A DNA stretch of 64,000 bases. Source: Membranipora membranacea (Eukaryota; Bryozoa; Gymnolaemata; Cheilostomatida; Membraniporidae). Below are positions 3,338 to 24,809 of the stretch, piece after piece (position 1 is the stretch's first letter; the number at the start of each line of letters is the position of its first letter). The translations under genes and the position numbers were made by a program. The notes beneath the pieces are model-generated. The model was not told where the DNA came from. It was given only the letters and a program-made list of their open reading frames with translations, and ran no database searches. Location of the stretch: assembly GCA_914767715.1 (NCBI GenBank), contig OU612067.1, forward strand, positions 27,068,162 to 27,132,161, written 5' to 3'.

Positions 3338-4556
3338 TTCACCCGATCCGGGAACGTTATAATCTTCAAGTTTTGTCAGTGTTTTCTTTCAATCAACAGT
3401 AATGGTCCGCATCAAACATAAACCCTCATTAACCCTAGTGATGCTGTATTACTGCATACGTATTTGCAGACTTTCTTTATCAATAACAAGTTATACAAAT
3501 ATACACAATGGTGAGCCAGAGTTACTTAACAATCTAGTGGGCAAAGGCCTTGACACTTATTAGTCAATAGCTCCATGGCCCCTTTTGTCAACAGACAAAG
3601 ACAAATCAATAGTTTGAATGTTGAATCAATAATTTCTGATAGAAAAGAGCTGAAACAATAGAAGATTACAGTGCATGATCTTCTCTTTTCAGAGCTTCAT
3701 TCAATCCATGACGTCTGCTTATGTGAAAACAGACACAAACGAAAGTCAATTTCCCAATAATTTTGCTTTAGCAGATGCTTTGCTTTTCATAGATGAAAGG
3801 TTATCCGTTCTGATGATTTTCTTGATTGACACAACCAAAATAAACTACATAGTGTACAGTCAGACCAGAAACAGATACAAAACTGAATGAGCACGTTAGC
3901 TCATTGTTTGTCATTTAATAAGGAGTTATCCTCACTGTACCAAGGGTAGGAAAACTCCTTTTACTAGTAACATGCTTCCTTAAGAATTAAGAAAGTGATA
4001 AATAAAATAAATAGGATAATTCACATAACTTGTTTTTGTGCTCAATGTGTTTTATTTTCTTGATTACTATCCCTTGAACCTTCAAGGTAAATGAGACGTA
4101 ATCACTCCAACCACGAAAACTCTTGAAGGAAATTAGTACTAGTTTTTTACATTTCTGTTTAACAGTTCAACCAGGGAATTATTTCACATCATAGACCAGG
4201 GAATCTGAAAATTATACCAGCTGTCAATAAATAGCCCCTTATATAATCAAATTAGCAGAGATGTTTGAAAAATACAGAATGATTAATGTAAAATAATAAA
4301 TATTTAGAAAAAAGACCTAGTTTTGAATGTTTGCCTACCTACAGCCGCCAGACAACATTTGACACCGTTGTGAGTGAGGTCATTGAATAATAATTTGGTG
4401 GCCGCTCATCTATAAGTTGGCCATGTTGCCATCCTGATATTGTGTGTGGTGTGAGGCTGTCACATAACATTTGATGCGTTCGTTAATATTGTTACATGGG
4501 AGACCCCAGAGGAAGGTGAGCTGAACAATACTGTGCAAGCTGAGGGTAGCACATCT
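3338..4556. other. Intergenic region between S1 and S2
   Basis: Contains the 3' flank of S1 and the 5' flank of S2. A 71-codon open frame at 3675-3890 has no family resemblance or splice context, so I see no gene here. Confidence 0.5.
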
Positions 4557-7500
4557 TCATACCGAGGAAGCTTCTTGCTCAGACTCAATATTAGCCTGAA
4601 GTTGTTTAGTTATCGCACCTCCGGATTGGACGGTTTGACCAATTTGGTGATTTGTAGCTGACACTGGACGTTGTTCAGTTAAACCACCTCCGGATCGGAC
4701 GGATTGACCAATTTGGTGATTTGTAGCTGTCACTGGACGGGATGATGATATTGAGATGTTCTGCGGCGGACTGGTGGCTGTTTCAGTTCGTACTTCAGTA
4801 TTATTGGGTTGCTGTTGGCCAATCTGCTGATTTAGAGATAATTGTTGAGAAGATAAAGATACTGTTTTGTTTTGTGGCTGACCTTCAGCAGTTTTTGATT
4901 TTACTTCTTTAGTGTGATTGTGACCAGGTGGTGTAGAATCAAAACCAAACAGAAGGAAATCGTATCTATATAGAATTTGGAGTTGTTTAACTTGTTCTAT
5001 GCTGAGTTGATTGTACCAATAGTCCAGAGCCTTGCCTTTACTGCGATGATTGTTCACTGTGAGGGTTGCATTCAGTTTTAACCTCTTTATCATAAAATTG
5101 GAGTTGTCCTGAAATCTGTCATATTTACCAATCATAGTGTAATTAGCTCTACAAGGTAGCGATAGATGGCTCTGCGGAGCCCAGTGATGATCCAGCCATA
5201 TACCCGATTTTCTGGACGATATAGAAGCTGATCTATTCCTTGCCTTTATTAGTATGCATTGCACAAATTGCGGGAACGTTAGAGTAGCGTTAGATTGTAT
5301 AGTCAACCAGCTACATGGGTTGTGATAGCTTTTTGTGTAGAGTCCGTTATCTCTCAGAGCTTTATCATTGTAAGCAGACACCAACCTTTCGTAAGGATGT
5401 CTGAAAAAATAAATTGAATTATTGGATGAAAATTCAACACCATTTCAATACAGTCAACTCATTGCAAATAGTGACTATGTGCTGTAAATATTTTGAACAA
5501 CATTTTTCAACACTCAAGACTTTCAATGTTCGAAGTTCAGCATTCATGCTTCATGGTATGGATTGCAAAGGCAGTGAAAGTGTAAAGTATCTCAGCTTGT
5601 TACAGCCTCTGCCCTCTACCACATTTATGTTGTGGGTTGTTGGTTCATATCTCGTTGTCTGATCTGCCTGCAAGCTAAGAATAGCTTGGCCAGATACATG
5701 GCAACCTAACACCTTTAAAACTCAGTTTTTGGCTGGATAGAACTGGTTTTTAAACAACATTTAACTCCTTTACCAACTGCAACTGCTTGGAAAACAAAAC
5801 TGTGATTTCAGGTCATGAAATAATATTGATGATATTCTACCGATATATTGCACCATTTGATAACATACCGAACCATTAGCAAGCGGTCTTTATAAGTTTC
5901 TGTATCAGCCTCACCGATAAGCGTCTTTACCAGGTCCACATCATGGTAGTCGTTGCCCCATGCCCACCTGATCAATAGCAATATACAAAACATTAATGCT
6001 TTGATTAGAGGAGAGCTCATCATTACCCTGGCTGGCCCAAACTTACCTTGCACAGGGGTGTCATTAGCTCAACATATGTAGCTGTACTTGTACCTATAAT
6101 CCAACGTTTAATAAAAAAACCTGATTCAAACTATTAAAAAAGGATTAAATTCAGGATAGATCATAGGAGTTCGGAGTAGAAAGGTTAGACATGTTAAATG
6201 TAGGGTGTAGGGTGTCTCGTCCACATTGCATGACCACAAAATATGAGTGGGATATGTTCTGGCCTTACTGAGTTGGGTTGAAACAGTTTATGACTTGGTT
6301 GCGACATGGTTATGCCATGATGCCGGTGGTGGTTGTTGCTTAAAAATTTTTGATAAGTAATAATAACACAATATGTGGTGAGATATAATATGATGAAACG
6401 ACTTTGGTTTTGGTTATGACATGATGCTGGTGGAGTGCATTGAGTAAAGTAACAGGGATTTTGAGTATAAAATGAGCCACCAGCGGGGAAAGGGGAAGAG
6501 GTGCTGTGGCACGCAGAGAGAGAGAGAGTTTGGCAGAATCACCACCCAGAGTTATACTGAATTTGTTCGACTCTATATAGTGAACTCATATCATGTAATA
6601 AAAATTATAATTACAGATAAACTATTTTAAACAGTAAATAAATTATTTAAATCTATACAAGCTCGGTGAAGTTTGTTTAACTTGAGTTGGTTAGGAATCA
6701 CAGGCGTTCTGCCCCAACAGTGCACATCAGTTAGAACCCTATACAATATTTAAAAAAGTTTTGGCGTCCAGCTGCACATGACGAAAATATGTTGACACTC
6801 TTACCAATCATTTAGAGGAGAGGGGGAGGTGGTCAGTGAGCATTTGTTTTCTGTTTATCTTTAAATGTTGCCAAGATCTTGAATCGGATGAGCCCAACAA
6901 AAAAATTCATGTGTCGCTTATTTGACAAAGTGAGAAAGGCTGTTGTCATCAATGTGAATAGTGACCAGTAATGGAGTGATAGAATAATATCAGGGGGGGT
7001 CTAATATGTACCATTTTTGAGATTCCATGAATTTAGTGAGATGTATTTGGCGATGATTCAGCCCAGACCAGAGCTGTTCACATTCAGTAACTTGGCAGCT
7101 TTCCATTAATGAACAGAAAGTCAATATAATACGCTGACCCCTGTATCTCATTCGTAAACACTAACCTTGAGTCTTTCCTAATACTTTCCAGTTTGCCGGC
7201 ATCTTTATAGAAGAGCACCTGCCAGGTGGTCCAGCCACACTTTGGTATAGGAGTGAAGAGTAGGGAGAACCTGCTTGTATTAGAGGTCCAGGTACGTGAG
7301 ACCCACGATCGCTCCAATCCCTCGTAGAATAACCTCTTTTCCTTGCTACATTTTTGGGAAGTAAAATTATCATAAAATGATTGTTTATTCTGTAAGCAAT
7401 ATGGAAGTGGTTCGTTTGCTTTACATATTTCCAATTCAACCAGCAAGCTATCTTCCACAAAGTTTAAAGGCACAGGTCATCTTGACCACTCGAAGTAAAT

Positions 7501-9053: not shown

Positions 9054-9540
9054 ATCTGCACTCTTCAGTAGTTGTTACCTAATAACGAAAAATAAATAAA
9101 GTTCCAAATTACACCTTTCGTACACAGAAAGGTGTATCCTACTGACCTGATGAAACTTGCACGATACACAGCTTGTGATGCCCTAGTTTGGGAATTCTAA
9201 ACGTGCTGCCCAGAGTTAGGTGTGTGCCACTATACCCCTCCCCTCACAAAGGCCGTTGGAGCTCTTAGACTAATGACATTTGATTAATAATTTAAAGCAA
9301 GCATACATAGAGTAAATCTTCCTTAGTAAAGAGAAGCTCAGTGTCACATATAATTGTTGTAAATGAGATAAGCGGAGCTTTGGTGACAGTGAGGAGTATT
9401 GTGTTTTATCGTTATCATCAAAACTCTAAAGCATAGGGATCAATAATTATCAGAACTCAATTAGGTTTGATTGTCGTCTCCAAACAATTATGTTATTTTA
9501 GGAAATAAATGTTCATTATTATCGTTCAATTCATTCAACT
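9054..9540. other. 5' flank of S1
   Basis: AT-rich non-coding sequence between the S1 start codon and the LINE fragment. It presumably holds the S1 promoter and 5' leader, but I found no clear TATA box or other motif. Confidence 0.4.
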
Positions 9541-10576
9541 CAGGAGGAGAGGAGTGCCTGAAGGATACATCAAGACCATCCAAGACATGTATGAGAACTT
9601 TTCGGCCCAAGTCAGGACAAACACTGGGAGCACAGAAGCCATAGAAATAAAGGTCGGATTACATCAAGGATCGGCATTGAGTCCTTTGCTCTTTATCATC
9701 ATTATGGATGTGATTACTGAGAGCATTGGCGAAGATACACCGTGGGCGATGTTATTTGCCGATGACTTGGTACTATGTGATGGCAACAGGGAACATCTGG
9801 AGAGAAGATTGGAAGTATGGAGGGAGAGAATGGAGAGTGTGGGACTAAAGCTAAGCAGGTCAAAGACAGAGTATTTACCACCAGTAGGTGAGGATGGCAA
9901 CATCATGATGAGGAAGTACAACTCAGAAGAGAAGGAAATCCTACCTGGGCGCATGCAGTTTAAGTACCTGGGCACCACCATCCATCAGGAAGGAGGGTGT
10001 CGCAAGGAGATTGAGCTGCTTGTTTCAAAGGCATGGAACAAATGGCGGGAGCTGAGTGGAGTACTCTGCGACAGGAAGATGCCTGCGAACTTGAAAATCC
10101 TCATCTACAAGACTGCTATACGGCCAGCTCTGACGTATGGGAATGACTGAGACCTGGCCTGTAACAGGAACCCTTATAGACAGGGTTAGCTCCTGTGAAA
10201 TGCGAATGCTAAGGTACTGCATGGGGATAAGCTTAGAGGATCATCGAAGGAATGAACAGATAACAGCCGAAGCAAATAAATGCCAATCAGGGATGTCATG
10301 AGGAAAAAGAGGCTAGAATGGTATGGTCATGTGTGTCGACGTGAGAGTGATGAAGATATCAGGAGAGTGTACGAGATGAGGGTAGAGGGAAGCAGAGGGC
10401 GTGGACGGCCAAAACAGCGCTGGAGTGACACAATCAATGCCGACCTTCGCTGGCTAGATCTAGAACGAGGTGATACAAGTGACCGAATAAGGTGGAGAAG
10501 TTTGGTGGAACTAGGAGTCAGCAAAAACCCGCCACCCGATCAGGACATGGCGGTGAAAGGTGAACAAAGGTGAACA
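9541..10576 (+). mobile_element. 5'-truncated LINE reverse transcriptase relic
   Basis: Encodes the C-terminal half of a non-LTR retrotransposon reverse transcriptase. Visible are the QGSALSPLLF block, the catalytic FADDL (YxDD-type) motif with the second and third catalytic Asp, the thumb region with FKYLGTTI, and a tail block (RLEWYGHVCRRESDEDIRR, then GRGRPKQRW) typical of these elements. It is broken: the frame stops at 10148-10150 and the tail continues in another frame from about 10280. Endonuclease and N-terminal RT are missing, as expected for 5' truncation at insertion. RTE-like clades are possible, but I cannot assign the clade. Confidence 0.85.
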
Positions 10577-13544: not shown

Positions 13545-13935
13545 AGGGTACCCGGCCATAATGCCATGGCCAAAATGCCATTGGGACAAAATGCCATTGC
13601 CATAATGCCATTGTCATAATGCCATGGCCATAATGCCATAGGTGAATACACCACTGCACAATATACCAATGCCAAAATACCAGTTGTACAAAACGCCAGT
13701 TGTGTCAACATACCAGTGGATATAAAGCCAGATGTGTCAAAATACCAATGGATATAAAGCCAGATTGGACATAATACCATGCGGGACAACATACCATATT
13801 CCAAAATACCATTGCCAAAATGCCAAAATATATAACCAAGGGAGATCAAGCCACGTTGTACTAGTCACATTGCAGCTGCGGATTGCTCGATCAGAGTAGG
13901 GGGTGGTTCAGTTCAGTTATGGCAAGTTAATTGAC
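13545..13935 (+). repeat. Inverted repeat left arm with ATGGCATT-type minisatellite
   Basis: Degenerate short tandem units of the form CATAATGCCATTG, followed by unique sequence ending in TCAGAGTAGGGGGTGGTTCA. The whole arm recurs in reverse complement at about 16030-16378. The open frames through the repeats encode only low-complexity peptides. Confidence 0.85.
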
Positions 13936-14579
13936 TCTCTAAATTTGACCAACTTTATGTCTTGGTTTGAAGGGTTTTGACTGGTCTTTTCTGATGCTAT
14001 TACCGGCGTCATGAAGGCTAGCATGATTGCACTCTGGCCCTACCAACACCCCCGGTATGAACTTTCTGAACAAGCCTATGCAATTTCTTAACAAGGACCT
14101 CTCTCTTCACTTGTTACTGGTTTTCATAAATTCAAGTTTGTTGGATCAAGCGTTGTATTCATGGTTTGTTATCATATTGAAAATATTTTGAATTGAGTAT
14201 GAAATTAATAAAAGTTTCTAAACTTTATATTCAAAAAGCATTTGTAATGGCATGATTTTTAGTTTTTCAAAAATATGAGAACTGTGACCCCTGTTTTAAT
14301 TCCCTTGATGTCAGACAGAGTCCTATCTGACTATCACTTGCGTTGCCCCAGAACTCTAATTCTAAATTCTGCTCAACGGCTGGACCGAGTGCTTGTATCA
14401 CCATCAGGGTTAAATCTAATTCCTTTTTCAGGCTTCTAAAATGTTCATAGATAGTTATGCTGTTCCTCTTTCTTCTAAAAAAGTTCTGGAATATGAGCTG
14501 TTAATCTTCTGGTTAAAAATGTTGTTCCAGGTCTCAAAAGGGTATTCTCATAGTTTATGACAAGACAGTTGGTGATACA

Positions 14580-15240
14580 CCATTCATTTATCAGAGGTAA
14601 ATTGCTCTTCGTACTTTCAGGTTCAGTGCTAAAATTATTAGTATTGCCAGCAAAAAAATTTCAATTTAGATCAGCTGATACATTCAGAAAGTCAACATTA
14701 TAAATTATAAATAGTGCTGGCCGAGAACTGAACCCTGGGGAGCACCGATCATGACAGGCAGTAAACCGATTTAATTCACTTACCAATACAAACTGTTTTC
14801 TATTTAAAAGATAATTTTTTAACAGTCGCTATGAGGGGGATAATATCTGAAAAAAATATCTGTTTACTTATTAGAACGGTGTGATTTATTGTATCAAAAG
14901 CTTTTGAAAGATATAAAATTAAACCCTGGGTCATTCTTCCATCAATAAAATGGCCGTAAAGTTGTTCCATTATAATATTGATTGTGTCAGTTGTACTGCG
15001 CCCATCTAATGCCAAATTTGTTACAATGATTTTCAAATTTCCTCTTTGGTATTTGAATGCTTTTTGCTTATTTTGTGAAGTTTAGTACCCTCTTTGGTGA
15101 GTGTAAATAACTGCTTAGTCATCCAAGGTTTCTTGATAGTAGGACGTTGATGCTTTCTGGCACTAATTTTGTTGCTGGCATTATCAATGCATGAGCTTGG
15201 TTTTCCATTAAAAGTTGGTGTCAGATATTTCTGTAACAAT
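14580..15240 (-). pseudogene. LINE reverse transcriptase relic (jockey/CR1-like)
   Basis: Minus-strand fragments in several frames. Near 15239-15033 a KPWMTKQL block matches the linker before the RT domain. Near 15036-14800 GRSTTDTINIIME and LSKAFDTINH match RT fingers. Near 14752-14730 the DNA still reads as GAPQGSVLG. Frameshifts and missing segments mean it cannot be active. It lies between the inverted-repeat arms. Confidence 0.75.
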
Positions 15241-15984
15241 TGTATAATTTCTTATAATAACACATTAATTTATTTTAGTTGTGTTCATCCGTAAGGAATT
15301 GTTGATCTGAAATGTTTAAATCTAAGGTGCACATTTTTATGTTCGGATTTAATAATAGTAATAGATAATATAAAATAATTATTTTGGTTTCACAAATTCC
15401 GGTTCGGGATCTAATAAGAATATAAAAATATTGGCTTCAACTCAACTTGCTTTAGTTTTTTGAAGCTAAGTCAAAATTTTTTTCTGGATTCAAATCAATG
15501 TTGATGTCACTAACAATAAGTCAGTTCGTGGGGAGCTAAATCCTCCAAAAAGCTGCCAAAGAGCCCAAGGGTGCCGGTAGACAGCGAGCACAGCGCACAC
15601 ATCTCGTCAAGACTCACCATCTGCACGCGTAATGCCTCATTGAAGAACTTAAGTTTTATTTGAGCCTATTTTCTCTGCTACAACAATGCAAAGATTATTT
15701 TGTACTCAGGTAGGGTTGGTCTGTACATGTGGTTTGTTTTATTTGTGAATAAATTTGTAAGTTACACTTCATGCGTATCACTATCCTCTGATCCCATTTT
15801 CTCTTTTGCTGCACATACCATTTGCTATTTATATAACATGGCAAGACAAAATCATTGCACCTCCAACACAGCAGACGGATGGTTCACAAACATGCCTTTA
15901 GTTGATATTTGAAGAATGGTTGGGAAATATTTATTACAAGTCACTAGCTCTCAGTTTGTGGATCCCAACAAACCCCAGATATAA

Positions 15985-16062
15985 TTGAAATTGAACGAAG
16001 AAACTTCGAGACTTGAACAGTGAAGGAGATGGCTCTAACCAACTGAACCACCCCCTACTCTG
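15985..16062 (-). other. tRNA-like segment, possible SINE head
   Basis: On the minus strand GGTTCAGTTGGTTAGAGCC resembles a pol III A box and GTTCAAGTCTC resembles a B box, about 35 bp apart. No clear acceptor-stem pairing is visible, so a tRNA-derived SINE head is likelier than a tRNA gene. Confidence 0.4.
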
Positions 16063-16378
16063 ATCAAGCAACCCGCAGCTATAATGTGACTAAAAAAATA
16101 CAACGTGGCTTGATCTCCTTTGGCTATATTATTTTGGCATTTTGGCAATGGTATTTTGGGATATGGTATATTGTCCCGCATGGTATTATGTCCAATCTGG
16201 CTTTATATCCACTGGTATTTTGACACAACTGGCGTTTTGTACAACTGGTATTTTGGCATTGGTATATTGTGCAGTGGTGTTTTCACCTATGGCATTATGG
16301 CCATGGCATTATGACAATGGCATTATGGCAATGGCATTTTGTCCCAATGGCATTTTGGCCATGGCATTTTGACACGGA
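16030..16378 (-). repeat. Inverted repeat right arm with minisatellite
   Basis: Reverse-complement partner of 13545-13935, matching over most of about 350 bp with small indels. The two arms flank about 2.1 kb that contains a LINE relic. Confidence 0.85.
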
Positions 16379-18013: not shown

Positions 18014-18017
18014 TTAA
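18014..18017. repeat. TTAA target site duplication, left
   Basis: TTAA directly abuts the left terminal inverted repeat and matches the TTAA at 24806-24809. Confidence 0.85.
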
Positions 18018-18619
18018 AGGGCAACCAAGGTTTCACATAGCTCAGAAGCTAACTTATAATGCAGTATTACACCCTTATGACCCAGCTTTTGACCCAGAAT
18101 AATCCAGATTGTACAATATCAGATGTTATTTATCCAATATACATACATTCCATAAATGTGATACAATAATTTATGTCAGAAAACAGGTGAAATATGAAGA
18201 GGTGTTTTACACAAATGGCACACTGATTTCTGTCAGAGTCCATTAAATGATTAATTGCGCATGTGCAGTGACCTGGAAAATGATAGGGAACGGCTAATAA
18301 CGAGGATTAACGAGTAGTATCATATTGTTTATTATGCTGTGCTGGCTGTGCGGTACATTTATCAAATACAGATTGGCTGTTTCCGGTTTCCTGCTTGAGA
18401 TTGTGGATCTTAGTCTAATTTTGGGATGTATGGTTGGTAAGTATGAGCACCCCTGATATGAAAGTAAGTCAGAATATCTCGGTATAACTTTCTTTCCTCG
18501 TGTGTATCTGAAAGTTTGAGACTGTGGTGGAATTAGTTTTCCTAACATTATCCTTTGAAAAGTTGAATAGTACACCATTTATCTACTTTGTTTCGTATCT
18601 GCTAAGTTGCATTTTTACC

Positions 18620-19423
18620 ATGCATGAGTGTGATGATGGGATGGAAGTTGATGGTACTAGTTGTGAGCCTGCCAATATGATTGATAATGATGACATTGAT
18701 TGTGGTGAGAGTGAATGTGCTGATCAGCATGCTGTTGTTGCTGAATCTGTGAGAGGTGAAGGGAGTAGTAGTAGTGGACCCAGACCTTATTCATTTGCCC
18801 CTGTGAAGGCCTGTTCTGGGAAATATATGGCACTTTCAACCCCAACCTTGTCCCAGGGAGTTTTATTTGCCCTGGCTGAAGAAGAGGAGGATGAGGGTGA
18901 TGACAGTGATAGTAGTAGTAGTAGTAGTAGCAGCAGTACAACAACATCTTTCAATACCAGTGTAAATCTCATGGATGGCCCAATAAATATGCCTGGTTGT
19001 CTGTGTGGTCGATGCCTATGTATGGAGAAAGAATGTGAGAATGTGTGTTGCCTGCAAGAAAACTTTGATGGTGTTATATTTAGGAATGGATTTGTGCCTG
19101 GCCCTGATTCTTTTGTGTGTATGTCTGTGGAGATCCAACACATTCTTGACCCCATCACGCTTGGCCTGGCATGGCAGCGTCAGCAGATGTTGAAAGGCTT
19201 GAAGGACCAACTGTCATTTAGAGTTATTAAGAACCGAGAGTACCGCCACCATGCTTACGTTTGTTATGTGCAGCTGGTCCATGGGTTGATAGGTAAAAGA
19301 CACCGTAAAGTGATTCCATCATGTGTGGTCAACTATATTAGGCAGTTGTGGCCAGACCCTAATGGGCGATACGTTGGATTCCGTGCGCCTGAACAGGTAG
19401 AGGCAATTCAATCGATTGAATGA
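18620..19423 (+). CDS. P2X7 cytoplasmic (ballast) domain-like protein inside transposon
   Basis: 267 aa, single exon as read. I take the ATG at 18620 (context TTTACCATG) rather than the upstream 18524, which would add a hydrophobic stretch ahead of the acidic part. Residues about 1-115 are acidic and Ser-rich with poly-Glu and poly-Ser runs. Then CLCGRCLCM, ECENVCC, an HxLDP-like segment (HILDPITLGLAW), YRHHAYVCYVQLVHGLIG, RKVIPSCVVNYIRQLWPDPN and GRYVGF follow in order. This matches the Cys-rich, zinc-binding C-terminal domain of P2X7 receptors, which is known to occur alone in invertebrate proteins. There is no channel part. It is encoded within the Kolobok-like element and converges on the transposase gene. 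Its function in the element is unknown; accessory DNA- or protein-binding is a guess. Confidence 0.8.
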   Translation: MHECDDGMEVDGTSCEPANMIDNDDIDCGESECADQHAVVAESVRGEGSSSSGPRPYSFAPVKACSGKYMALSTPTLSQGVLFALAEEEEDEGDDSDSSSSSSSSSTTTSFNTSVNLMDGPINMPGCLCGRCLCMEKECENVCCLQENFDGVIFRNGFVPGPDSFVCMSVEIQHILDPITLGLAWQRQQMLKGLKDQLSFRVIKNREYRHHAYVCYVQLVHGLIGKRHRKVIPSCVVNYIRQLWPDPNGRYVGFRAPEQVEAIQSIE

Positions 19424-19770
19424 TCATGTGATTGATATGAAGTGAGAGAGTGGCTGTTGTTCTGATTTTATATATATAAATGTATGTATATACGTTGATG
19501 ATGGAAACAATTGAATGATCATCTGATTGACATGAAATGTGAAAGTGACTGTCGTTCTGAGTTTATATATATAAATGTATGTATATACGTTGATGATGGA
19601 AACGATTGAATGATCATCTGATTGACATGAAATGTGTAAGTGACTGTTGTTCTGAGTTTATATATATATAAATGTATGTATATACGTTGATGATGGAAAC
19701 GATTGAATGATCATCTGATTGACATGAATTGAGTGAGTGGCTCGTTTATATAAATATATGTACATACGTT
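19409..19770 (+). repeat. Tandem repeat, unit about 96 bp, about 3.7 copies
   Basis: Units start with ATTGAATGATCAT at 415, 510, 605 and 702 (plus 19000), so the periods are 95, 95 and 97 bp. Each unit contains a TATATATAAATGTATG block. The first unit includes the stop codon of the P2X7-like ORF, so the repeat grew from the 3' end of that gene. It fills most of the gap to the transposase gene. Confidence 0.88.
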
Positions 19771-19897
19771 GTATTAACTAACAAGGAAAAATGTATAACA
19801 AAAATTTATGTTCATAGTTATTTGTTGTGTTAACGTTGTAGATTATGGAGACAAGTCAGGCAAAAAACCAGTCTACAAATCAGGTCATGGTGTGAAG

Positions 19898-22800
19898 TCA
19901 GAATCTGGTCATATACTTCTCCTTAAGTTCTGCCAAAGATGGTTTCACTGCTGCTTTCGAGATCTTGGTAGAAGGTATCTAAAACATACATAATTTAATA
20001 ATAGTATTACTTAATTTGAGACGATTGATAGGTTATCAGACTATTATTATTGGTGTATCGACAACCTCCTTGGCATAAAAGTCACTTATTCAGTTCAAAA
20101 TGCTATTTTCAGAGTTGCTCCCCCATTGACCAGAGTGGGGGCAACTCTGAATGTAGGCTTTATCTAATATTGATTTCTCTCTGCACGCTCGGTTGAGACA
20201 AAAATAAGATGATAGCATTAAATAACCACATACCACTGAACAATTTTTGGTGTGCTCCGATGCTGTAGCCATGATCCTTGCCCTGATCCTCTCTCTGAAA
20301 CTGTATGTCCTTTGTACATACACCTTCCTTAGCCTGTAAGCCTTTGAGGCCTTCGACCAGGTCATCCTCATCACTGGATCTCCATTCTCATCTGTAAATT
20401 ATAACAAATTCAATATATTGACCTTGATGTGTTATTGAAAATGCAATTTACCAGAATTCTCTGGGAGCTTATTTTGTTATCTGAGCAGTCATGATATCAG
20501 TTTGATGACATACCTTTCTTCACATCTCGGTTACAATTCTCGTTATGATCCAGAATAGCCAATTGAACACGGCCATTGTATGCTGAGGGCTCGTAATCAA
20601 TTCTTTTGGATGCATAACTCAGCAACAAGCTGTGGAGGACTTCTAGTACTCCTGTATGCTGGCCATGTGCCGTCTGCCTTAACTGACTCAGAAAGTTGGC
20701 ATTAGAGATATGGCTCAGCAGAACTCTGTGAGCAGGACCGTCTTTTTCAAGCCATGCAATACTCCTGTCAGCGTCCCTAAAAAAGTTTCATGATGAATGA
20801 GCAATTTGGTAAAGCTGATGCAGTGAACGCGCTATGATATTGAAATTGTTATGAAAATTATTCTTTGCTTTTTTTTATAGGTTGTGAAGAATGATGGAGC
20901 ATTATTGTATACTGATGATGGCAGCAACAGAATGGATTGCGCTCAATGGATTATAGACCTTAACCAAACGCTACTACGTATGAATTCTCAGCTTAATCGT
21001 GAAATACCTAGATATGGTGTCATGGAGACACTTCTTAAACTTTGTGGTGAATGGAAAGCCACTATGGACATCAATGACGTGAAAGGCGACACTTGTGAAC
21101 ATTTCAACCAATAACTCAGCATCACCCCCGCAGTTTGCAGCCGACCACCAGAGGTGATTAGTGATCTCCGGGATCCAGGGTAGCAATTTTCTTTCTTCCT
21201 ATATCACAGAAAACAAAACGGATTATGTACCTGAAAATAACACAAACGCGGACTAAACCATACATCCCCAGGTACGGACTGATGCTATGCTCTGGACCCT
21301 TTTATTTTCTGTTACTCCTATCATCCCTGTTACTCGCTATCTGAAATATGAAAACAAGATTTGCTGACTGCTCTGTTACTGTTACTTGATTTATCATTAA
21401 TAATATAAATTTGATGATGTCCTTCAAACTCTCAATGTCACCTTTGTTTTGCACTTTTTGTTCAGGTTTTTAGTAATGTTTTTGGCCATATGCCAAACAT
21501 CAAGCCCGTGCAATATATTTGGTTCATTTTTTCTCATGTGAGCCCGGATTGAAATTGAGCCATCAGTGGTGATGCTCTTCAGTTTAGCTCCCAGGTCAGC
21601 CTTGGCTTCGGTGACAAGCTCCACAAAAGCCTCCTTCTCAGCCATGGTGCTGGAGCTGGTTTCAGCGCACTGCTTAGTCAAGTTGTAGGCCACTTCTCCA
21701 GTACGCTTTAAAATTAATATAAGATCTATGTGAAAACTATGATTGTTGGAAATTCAGACTTCTAGGTTGTCGAAAAGTTGTCGTTGCCAATTTGCAGCTT
21801 GTCGAAACTTCCCATCATAAATGGTAATTGTGCAGAAAGTTTCCATCGGCCAGACATGTTTACCATGGAGTCAATATAAGCTAGAGGTTAGCGATGACTT
21901 AATGTTAGCTAGCTCAAGGCTAAATCTTACTAACTAATGTTGGCTAACTTTTCCCTCTGTCAATACTTTTCCCCTCTATGCTAGTCTAAGTGCTCAGACT
22001 CCAAGGCGCAGGGAGTTACTTGCGCAAGTAACTCCCTGCGCCTTGGAGTCTGAGCACTTAGACTACCTCTATGCAGTAAATAGTGGTAAATGCATGCAAG
22101 CTGTTTTGAACCAGTGATAAGTCACTACTTACTCCATCAACCATAGTGTAGGTGCAATAGCGAGCACAGTGTCCTGGGGAATCATATCTCCCGTCGCCTG
22201 CCAACACAATATCACCTGAAAATAAAGTGTTCAATTAAAAATTTAATCAGCAAGCAGTTTATCCATAACATGACATATTCCAGTTCAGCATTGTGTCAAC
22301 AACCACTACCTACTTATCTCCCAAGTTAATATGACTGCTGTACCTTTCAGTTTGAGGTTTTCTTTAACTTTTCCGATTACTTCATTAAACTCGGCAGAAA
22401 CAGCCGGCAGCACAACATTCTTCTGGTAGTCGTGATAAGTTGATGAGCTAAGAAATTGGATGTTCTCATCCTCCATGAACTTTGAAATCCCTGTATATGA
22501 TTGGCCGCTGCAAAATCAAGAGGAATGTGGACCTATTGGACTGGCTTCTTGTACGAATTAGAAGGAATTTAGAAGTCTTTCCTTAGCGTAGATTGCTATT
22601 ACCAGGGACAAGCTTTGTCCTAAATTCACTAAGGCTAGTAGATTTTGAATTTCTCAGTTATATACCAAAGCAATTTTGTAATGGATCATGTCAAATAAAC
22701 ATACGTGAGGAATATGGAGCTAGAGATGTCCACATTCCCCATAGCTTTTCTTCCTAACGCAGGCTGAGAGTGCCACGTCCGCTGATACGAGCACTTGGTA

Positions 22801-24477
22801 CATCTAGTCCATACGATCAGCATGCTGCCCTTATGTTCACTAAAACCATACTTGAGGGTGCTGTTACATCTGTCACATTTAATCTGTTGAAAGTCAAACA
22901 TTATCTTTTATCAGCTGGAATTTTAAAATTCAAGTGTGCACATTCCGCTCTTCTCTGACATGTGAATTCGAACGCTTGAGAAGTTGCCTTTCCCTTCACA
23001 TTAATACTTGTAATAATAATCAATATCAATCTTAATCAAGACTTACCAAGTTAAATAGCTCAGCTATAGCAGACTGGTAAATAATATGCTTTCGTGTGGG
23101 ATCTATCTCCTGTACGGAGCTTTCGAAAGAATCTGCTTCGTCTTCAGCGTAACCTGAAGGTGTATAGCTGCTGTCCTCAGGGTCCAACACTGGATAACAA
23201 TACAGAAGCAGAAAATGTATGCAAGTTTTTTTCTGTGTTATTGAACTCCAGCATCCCTCGGATAACACTCCATCCTGTTCAAAGCTTGAGCTCTAGACTA
23301 TCTAACTCAACTCAAAACTTTACTTTTTCTGCTCAGTGAACTTTCAACTTCCAGAAATGGCTGATACATGTATTACCAGTAACATATCAATATATTTGTT
23401 TAGCTGGAGAAAAAATTCTATTACCATCATCAGAAACATCCACATCTGAAGCCTCAGAGTACACAAATCCCATGGCAGCATCAGTTGGGGCATAGTTTTC
23501 CTGCAATATGAATAACAGTTATTCAGCTGTAGATTTTCCAGTCTTGACTTATTTTCGGTCAGCCTAGCAGAGCTAAGGACACATCCATAAATTCTAATAT
23601 GCATCGTTTACATTTGAATATAGCAACAGAGCGCTGTTTGGATAGTAAAGATTACTATAACCGTCACAAAACAGAAACATGTCATCATTAAATAGTTCAC
23701 TCAATCTACCTTAGCAGGTATCTCTTGCTCCTCCATCAAGGTCTTGAGACGCTTGGGGCCAGGCTCTACAGGGGTTGAGTGCATGAACTCAGGTTTGGTA
23801 TACTGCAAAACATAGATGAACTAATTGTTGCTGCGGTTTCTTGAATTATCTTATGTGTTAAAATGGTCATCAGTACATGGTGTGTTTTCAATCATCAGCT
23901 ACTCATGAAGGGAACAGGGGTGAAGTAAACTTGCTAATGAATTGTGAGTTGGTCACTCCTTTAGGATCTTGTCTATGGAACTTGAAAAACAACTGAGTCA
24001 AGATGATGTTATGTTTTACGCAGGAGTTATGGCGTAGTATGCATGGTTTTTTAACCTCACCTTTACACTATCAGTCTGTGTGTCAGCTGTACACATATCC
24101 AACACAGTTTGAGTAGACATACTACTGTTTGCTGTTATCTCATCTGTTTGAGTTGACATGTCTTTTTGTCCTGAAAATTGTTGAGGGACAACCCCATGTC
24201 TTATGTGTTTTGCTAGAGAGCAACCCTTCTTTACAGTGTACACAAAATCTTGTTGATCAAAATGCAGGGAACATATTTTGAACCTAGTAAACCCTATATT
24301 GCAGAAGTTATGCAACTCAAAATCTAGGTACCATCAGGGAGAATGGTACCATCCACTTTGATAAAGATAAAGATGAGCTAGTTTTGCAGGTATAGAGTGG
24401 AATGTTATGTCTGAGCTAGATGTTGAGGATTTGCAGTGTTTGAAGAAACATGTCTTGGTTGAAGAGAATGCCATCAT
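19898..24477 (-). CDS. THAP-domain transposase, Kolobok-like, 13 exons
   Basis: Exons: 24477-24357, 24293-24061, 23802-23710, 23500-23425, 23189-23047, 22883-22705, 22507-22344, 22215-22133, 21705-21442, 21198-21008, 20776-20514, 20391-20234, 19978-19898. Together they give 682 aa with every junction in phase. Exon 1 (TCFFKHCK, FHSIP) and exon 2 (ICSLHF, GVVPQQF) form an N-terminal THAP zinc finger of C2CH type. Later landmarks are a CxxC pair (IKCDRCNSTL, TRCTKC), GDGRYDSPGH, TTDGSIS, HGLDVWHMAKN, LLPWIPEITNHLWW and HTGVLEVLHSLLL, as in Kolobok-type transposases (recalled family pattern). The Asp residues in GDGR and GLDVWH are candidates for the catalytic centre. Weakest call: the exon 1 donor (CAAA|GTGGAT), which leaves a short THAP loop. 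The gene should mobilise the surrounding element. Confidence 0.82.
21982..22065. mobile_element. 84-bp perfect palindrome flanked by 9-bp direct repeats
   Basis: Two 42-bp arms meet without a spacer at TTGC|GCAA (22023/22024) and match exactly. CCTCTATGC lies immediately outside both ends (21973-21981 and 22066-22074). It sits in intron 8 of the transposase gene. The 9-bp direct repeats point to insertion of a tiny foldback element rather than local inversion. Confidence 0.85.
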
Positions 24478-24805
24478 TTATTGTTATTGCTAGAGGAATT
24501 ACACATCAAATTTGCCGCGATCAATACTACTGGTACAATAGAATGATAAGTGATGCAAGGCATTCAGTAATCATAATGACTTTTTATTGTTGTTGTCTGC
24601 ATGCATTCAGTAAGTTCTCAGACTAACAGAAAAATCCGTAGTATTTCCAGGTCACTTTACAGCCTCAAACAAATGAAGATTATTTTTATTTCAAGAGCTC
24701 GTAACTCCAATTTATTAATTTAAATTTATCAAAAAAGTGATATCACAGTCATGATAGAGTACCTCAGTCATTATAAGCTCAATAGATTGAAACCATGGTT
24801 GCCCT

Positions 24806-24809
24806 TTAA
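24806..24809. repeat. TTAA target site duplication, right
   Basis: TTAA directly abuts the right terminal inverted repeat and pairs with 18014-18017. Confidence 0.85.

Follow-up and report, generated by a model that had tools for sequence, protein, structure and literature searches.

A Kolobok-like transposon of Membranipora membranacea with a THAP transposase gene and a KolX gene resembling the P2X7 ballast domain

The window described here is a stretch of 64,000 nucleotides from the bryozoan Membranipora membranacea (C3:27068162-27132161 of an assembly of 339 Mb in 18 contigs). It contains a complete transposon unit at 18018-24805, whose inverted 18-bp ends match at 17 of 18 positions and which holds two convergent genes, one for a THAP/DDE transposase and one, here called KolX, for a protein with similarity to the cytoplasmic ballast domain of the P2X7 receptor. 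The unit and its parts are as follows.

18014-18017, no strand: left TTAA target-site copy, in the same place in two further copies of the element (L009 and L010) despite unrelated flanks
18018-18035, plus strand: left 18-bp terminal inverted repeat, AGGGCAACCAAGGTTTCA, from the end search and copy comparison
18620-19423, plus strand: KolX gene, one exon, 267 amino acids and a stop, from the open reading frame and a Pfam match
19413-19728, no strand: tandem repeat of a 95-bp unit (3.3 copies) in the space separating the genes, beginning in the last KolX codons
19898-24477, minus strand: THAP/DDE transposase gene, 12 exons, a hand-built model based on open frames and AG/GT borders
24061-24477, 23710-23802, 23425-23500, 23047-23189, 22705-22883 and 22344-22507, minus strand: transposase exons 1-6 of the hand model
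22133-22215, 21442-21705, 21008-21198, 20514-20776, 20234-20391 and 19898-19978, minus strand: transposase exons 7-12 of the hand model
21982-22065, no strand: perfect 84-bp palindrome inside a transposase intron, with two 42-nt arms that adjoin directly and the 9-bp CCTCTATGC on either side
24327-24344, minus strand: 18-bp insert with an in-frame TGA in the THAP exon of the window copy
24788-24805, minus strand: right 18-bp terminal inverted repeat, AGGGCAACCATGGTTTCA, with one mismatch to the left repeat
24806-24809, no strand: right TTAA target-site copy, from the window sequence and copy comparison

Both ends and both TTAA duplications had been proposed in an initial annotation made from the letters of this stretch and were found at these places; the 18-bp end occurs twice in the window, where 0.05 matches are expected by chance. 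A DNA search with the left 283 bp of the element gave 17 matches in the genome, and 14 regions around such matches, the window's own region not among them, were compared. L009 (C5) and L010 (C4) are collinear with the whole element at 98.7% and 98.3% identity, and in both the likeness ends at the element ends, with TTAA on both sides and unrelated flanks, which confirms the boundaries; the TTAA duplication was seen in all three full-length copies (window, L009 and L010). Three more long copies are broken, of which C7:19070376 matches only to element base 3642 within the region compared, C7:3624681 is fragmentary, and C2:32001022 extends to element base 6753 with several interruptions. The 84-bp palindrome is a nested insertion, shared by the window, L009 and L010 copies and represented by an empty site in the C2 copy. 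The termini, AG...CT, agree with the 5'-RR / YY-3' definition of Kolobok as it stands in passages of PMC9587614. No direct repeat was found at the two element ends, and the terminal direct repeats of KolobokP (~450 or 660 bp) were thus not seen.

The KolX protein consists of an acidic and serine-rich N-terminal part with the motif PYSFAP, followed by a C-terminal P2X7 ballast domain, which is matched by the Pfam profile P2RX7_C (PF20478) with 45.8 bits at a cut-off of 23.5 (E 8e-12); the initial annotation had named such a profile match as a test of its proposal, and the test is passed. The frame is open in all three full-length copies and encodes 267, 269 and 270 amino acids, the length varying in the serine run. 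From stop to stop it spans 303 codons, whereas the longest frame among 200 first-order Markov sequences of element length reached 222, so that the intact second gene of P2X7 type proposed in the initial annotation holds up. A profile built from an alignment (A1) of window KolX and seven other KolX proteins of this genome was compared with all PDB chains and gave four matches to E 0.01, all of them P2X7 (best E 4e-11), covering the cysteine motif and the C-terminus. Single sequences were less informative: window KolX alone had no match in PDB to E 0.01, and L009 KolX alone gave P2X7 first at E 0.031 with complement factor H chains following from 0.045, which is not significant. Taken by sequence likeness, the C-terminal half of KolX is homologous to the P2X7 ballast domain. 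A predicted structure of the window ballast region folded alone had a mean pLDDT (the predictor's own confidence score) of 33 and was discarded. A second KolX exon was considered at 20881-21114 (plus strand, a 77-amino-acid frame with an acceptor-like start, antisense to transposase exon 9) and rejected, as the frame is interrupted by a stop in L011 and by many in L013, no Pfam profile matched it to E 1, and a frame of such length occurred in all 200 Markov sequences of element length.

In L009 the transposase model runs without a stop through 696 residues; it matches the Mutator-like transposase profile PF20700 (E 2.8e-13) and, with 24.2 bits just above the cut-off of 23.9, the THAP profile PF05485; the DDD/E catalytic residues were read by eye. 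The window copy was earlier described as a 13-exon gene with closed frames, which has to be corrected to 12 modelled exons with a TGA at codon 48. This stop lies inside the 18-bp insert in the THAP exon. L009, L010 and the C2 copy, which are the three other copies readable at this place, do not have the insert; it is composed of GGTACCAT, ten bases starting CAGGG, and again GGTACCAT. A footprint left on excision of an element with 8-bp duplications, hAT for example, could have this composition. As modelled, the transposase of the window copy is broken and gives no full-length product; L010 has a separate stop at codon 474, leaving an open transposase frame in one of the three full-length copies. 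A genome search with PF20700 gave 114 matches among the 183 candidates scored; the window's own transposase was not among them, and therefore these matches could not be used for counting pairs.

Across the genome, at least 44 P2RX7_C matches exceed the cut-off. Twenty of these loci, including the window's own (L040), were read, and of the 24 others two fall inside the C2 and C7 copies described above. The same profile had no match in 14 control genomes, a result that carries little weight. The proteins were sorted by eye into the groups F1 (the window family, with another KolX at L034 on C1), F2, F2b, F3, F4, F5 and F6. Downstream of KolX and on the opposite strand, C-terminal transposase exons were found at 13 of the 20 loci (E <= 0.016), five of them belonging to F1, whose transposase was the query; locus L048, which extends L036, adds one further pair and brings the count to 14 of 20. 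Each of the seven KolX groups has at least one positive locus; for F2 there is a single one, L030, at E 0.016. The initial annotation had called the P2X7-like gene a cargo, which is probably the wrong word, given its convergent arrangement with the transposase in every group read, with F2 at that E value.

The groups differ in their cysteines and share other residues. When 12 KolX rows were aligned with a P2X7 fragment, no variation was seen at the positions of P2X7 R546, Y550, G559, P570, C572, R578, P582, Y588 and G590; L028 (broken frame, with Met at the R578 column) and L033, L035 and L043 (near-duplicates or partial) had been dropped before this count, and L030, L031, L038, L040 and L046 were outside the residue alignment. 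By alignment, window KolX has equivalents of R546, H547 and R578. Three of seven cysteine columns are missing in F5, and a fourth differs between L045 (Cys) and L043 (Gly), yet F5 retains residues corresponding to R546 and R578 as well as the Y-x-G-F tail; F6 lacks one of the seven columns. The reduced-cysteine KolX adjoins a Kolobok transposase at L045, L046 and L047, and 11 of the 44 P2RX7_C matches have the profile span of F5 (129-191), three of which were read as loci. An N-terminal motif of the PYxFxP type is common to F1 (PYSFAP), F4 (PYAFAP) and F5 (AYAFMP). Residue 165 is Phe in window KolX and Cys in three other F1 copies compared, which have Cys at both the 165 and 167 positions. In one alignment Phe165 falls in one of the seven columns of conserved zinc cysteines (Phe in one row, Cys in 11 others), which would mean that window KolX had lost a cysteine present in all relatives; A1 places the neighbouring Cys167 in that column, so that such a loss depends on the alignment chosen and is no firm claim.

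Elements with the same ends are far more numerous than KolX genes. TTAA followed by the 18-bp end, allowing two mismatches, occurs 1,837 times in forward and 1,809 times in reverse orientation in the genome, whereas a control pattern, the end read backwards, was found in neither. If the ends pair, up to ~1,800 elements could carry them, and other families may share the same 18-bp ends. Among the first 100 end positions, all on C1 and all exact, 13 inward-facing neighbour pairs were spaced 385-8,465 bp apart; because 12 of the 13 were below 2.4 kb, elements bearing the 18-bp ends are probably short for the most part, by extrapolation from these C1 ends. L016 and L020 have both ends with only ~290 and ~120 bp of element sequence and contain neither gene. 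Copies with the same boundaries and no P2X7-like frame, which the initial annotation had named as evidence against itself, thus literally exist, as is also seen from 1,837 and 1,809 ends against 44 P2RX7_C matches. The short gene-less copies L016 and L020 are read as non-autonomous derivatives, and for this reason the pairing of transposase and KolX is not undone by them; both genes are present in all three full-length copies free of large insertions, and in two of these the transposase contains a stop.

P2X receptors were found separately. At least 13 matches to the P2X_receptor profile (PF00864) are present in the genome, and by position all 13 are more than 500 kb from every one of the 44 P2RX7_C matches, with 546 kb (on C4) as the shortest distance; no P2X7-like fusion of a P2X receptor with a ballast domain was found in this comparison. 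In seven of the receptor matches a single open frame (391-495 codons) spans 356-360 of the 361 profile positions, and as a near-complete profile fits one frame, these seven near-full-length genes are probably intronless.

The connection between this domain and transposons has already been described. According to passages of Kojima & Bao 2022 (PMC9587614), Kolobok families of the Kol0 type encode a transposase and KolX, KolX resembles the C-terminal part of P2X7 (the ballast domain), P2X7 originated when a P2X4-like gene fused with KolX, and Nanor is KolX in domesticated form. Stand-alone ballast domains had been described by Rump et al. 2020 (PMC7016195, in part), and their link to transposons had, in the words of the passages of PMC9587614, not been pointed out before. 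The transposon route for the P2X7 domain that the initial annotation put forward is therefore not new: it was published in 2022, and the window element is a new member of the known Kol0 type. What identifies the window frame as KolX is the resemblance of KolX to the P2X7 C-terminus reported in the literature. Like Kol0 (Kolobok-1_XT type) in that description, the element has TTAA sites, 5'-RR...YY-3' ends, a DDD/E transposase and KolX, while the window family has its own 18-bp ends; the comparison is with the published description. Proteins without most of the cysteines are reported in the same passages from a few piggyBac families, whereas here, in F5, such a protein adjoins a Kolobok transposase.

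Further likenesses concern the domain and the transposon separately. With the P2X7 ballast or ZCD domain and NANOR-like proteins, as passages of PMC7016195 present them, KolX shares the cysteine motif and the conserved C-terminal tail; unlike P2X7, the window protein has no channel part and its gene lies inside a transposon. Stand-alone domain genes number fewer than 10 per species in these passages, compared with at least 44 matches here. Passages of PMC6004289 describe for Xenopus Kolobok and T2-MITEs a similar picture of many short TTAA-flanked elements starting with AGG and few transposase-bearing copies, and a transposase with THAP, DDE and H2CH motifs, as here; the ends are AGGRR in Xenopus and AGGGC here. 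The term 'p2x' does not occur in the main text of PMC6004289, and the passages concerned do not mention KolX or P2X7.

Considered together, the ends, the TTAA duplications, the transposase profiles matched by the L009 version (with the window copy interrupted in its THAP exon) and the P2RX7_C and P2X7 matches support the proposal of a Kolobok element with a P2X7-ballast gene, and the window unit is very probably a copy of a young Kolobok family of Kol0 type with KolX. The transposase would bind the element ends through its THAP domain, excise the element and insert it at TTAA. The window copy would move only with help from another copy, and the short elements with the same ends presumably moved likewise. 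Because KolX stays beside the transposase across very divergent families, it may be a standing accessory protein of transposition, in the transpososome or as a nuclear cofactor, which would dock via its N-terminal tail while the ballast fold binds nucleotide, nucleic acid or a partner. That KolX acts in transposition itself is considered somewhat probable. It could instead belong to the element and serve outside transposition, regulating expression or countering host silencing, for which a separate gene with a long, disordered-looking acidic and serine-rich part would be suitable, and contact of KolX with the transposase or the ends was nowhere seen in this analysis; there is no positive evidence for such a role, and it is regarded as possible, on the unlikely side. 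The domain match is to P2X7, which might suggest that the frame is part of a host P2X7-like receptor gene and not of a transposon. As the frame is enclosed by the ends and accompanies them at three unrelated sites, and no receptor match is near a ballast match, this can practically be dismissed. That KolX is a host gene captured by chance by this one element would agree with the short same-ended copies without KolX, which indicate that it is not needed in cis, but those copies also lack the transposase. Moreover, KolX is convergent to a homologous transposase in seven widely differing groups, where seven captures in the same orientation are unlikely, and Kol0 families of other animals carry KolX as well (passages of PMC9587614), making chance capture very improbable.

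Some observations weigh against this reading of the element and of KolX. Six of the 20 loci (L027, L028, L031, L033, L035 and L041) had no transposase in the stretch compared, and 24 of the 44 P2RX7_C matches are outside the pairing count. Ratios of non-synonymous to synonymous substitution (dN/dS), calculated by NG86 from small counts, point both ways. In favour are the values of 0.43-0.48 obtained when three young F1 copies were compared with L034, of 0.26 in F2 (L027/L028) and of 0.34 in F5. Against it stand 0.58-1.16 in six F3 pairs and 0.79 and 1.05 in two young F1 pairs, while one further F1 pair and the pair from F4 show no synonymous change. At the level of these sequences, constraint on KolX is visible between older copies, with little or none between recent ones. 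A literature search for KolX yielded no experiment on it.

As to what the accessory protein might do, rat P2X7 contacts guanosine diphosphate (GDP) through R546, H547, R574, R578 and K583, and R546 and R578 were reported to be conserved beyond deuterostomes (Rump et al. 2020, PMC7016195, in part). New here is that, by alignment, both GDP-contact arginines R546 and R578 persist in cysteine-poor KolX. As F5 lost three or four cysteine columns yet keeps these arginines and the Y-x-G-F tail beside a transposase, the working core of KolX might be the pocket around the arginines and not the zinc cluster, and the guanine-nucleotide site of P2X7 would then be inherited from a transposition cofactor sensing nucleotide or gripping DNA ends. 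This is a speculative reading, and a rather doubtful one.

Other features of the window lie apart from the element. An inverted repeat at 13554-16374 has arms of ~190 and 114 nt, 93-96% complementary and ~2.3-2.4 kb apart, which are built of short tandem units such as GGCCATAATGCCAT; its form suggests a further mobile element whose ends are long and repetitive. Arrays of 12-bp tandem units (TCTGTTGGAGCT and variants) recur every ~6-8 kb, at ~30604, 36658, 43637, 49991 and 57774, and two of the frames read share a start WRMVMIWRI... and a PAPTEAP-like repeat. The region is possibly a tandem gene cluster. A frame of the sulfotransferase family (4560-5444, minus strand; PF03567, E 5e-23) and a reverse-transcriptase frame (9509-10147, plus strand; PF00078, E 2.5e-15) are also present. 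An Rfam scan of the whole window gave no match.

A genome that has P2X receptors, and in which no fusion of P2X and ballast domain was found, supports the view that vertebrates took over the domain forming the P2X7 tail from a transposon protein. The natural KolX proteins with full and reduced cysteine clusters provide material for testing the original role of the ballast domain.

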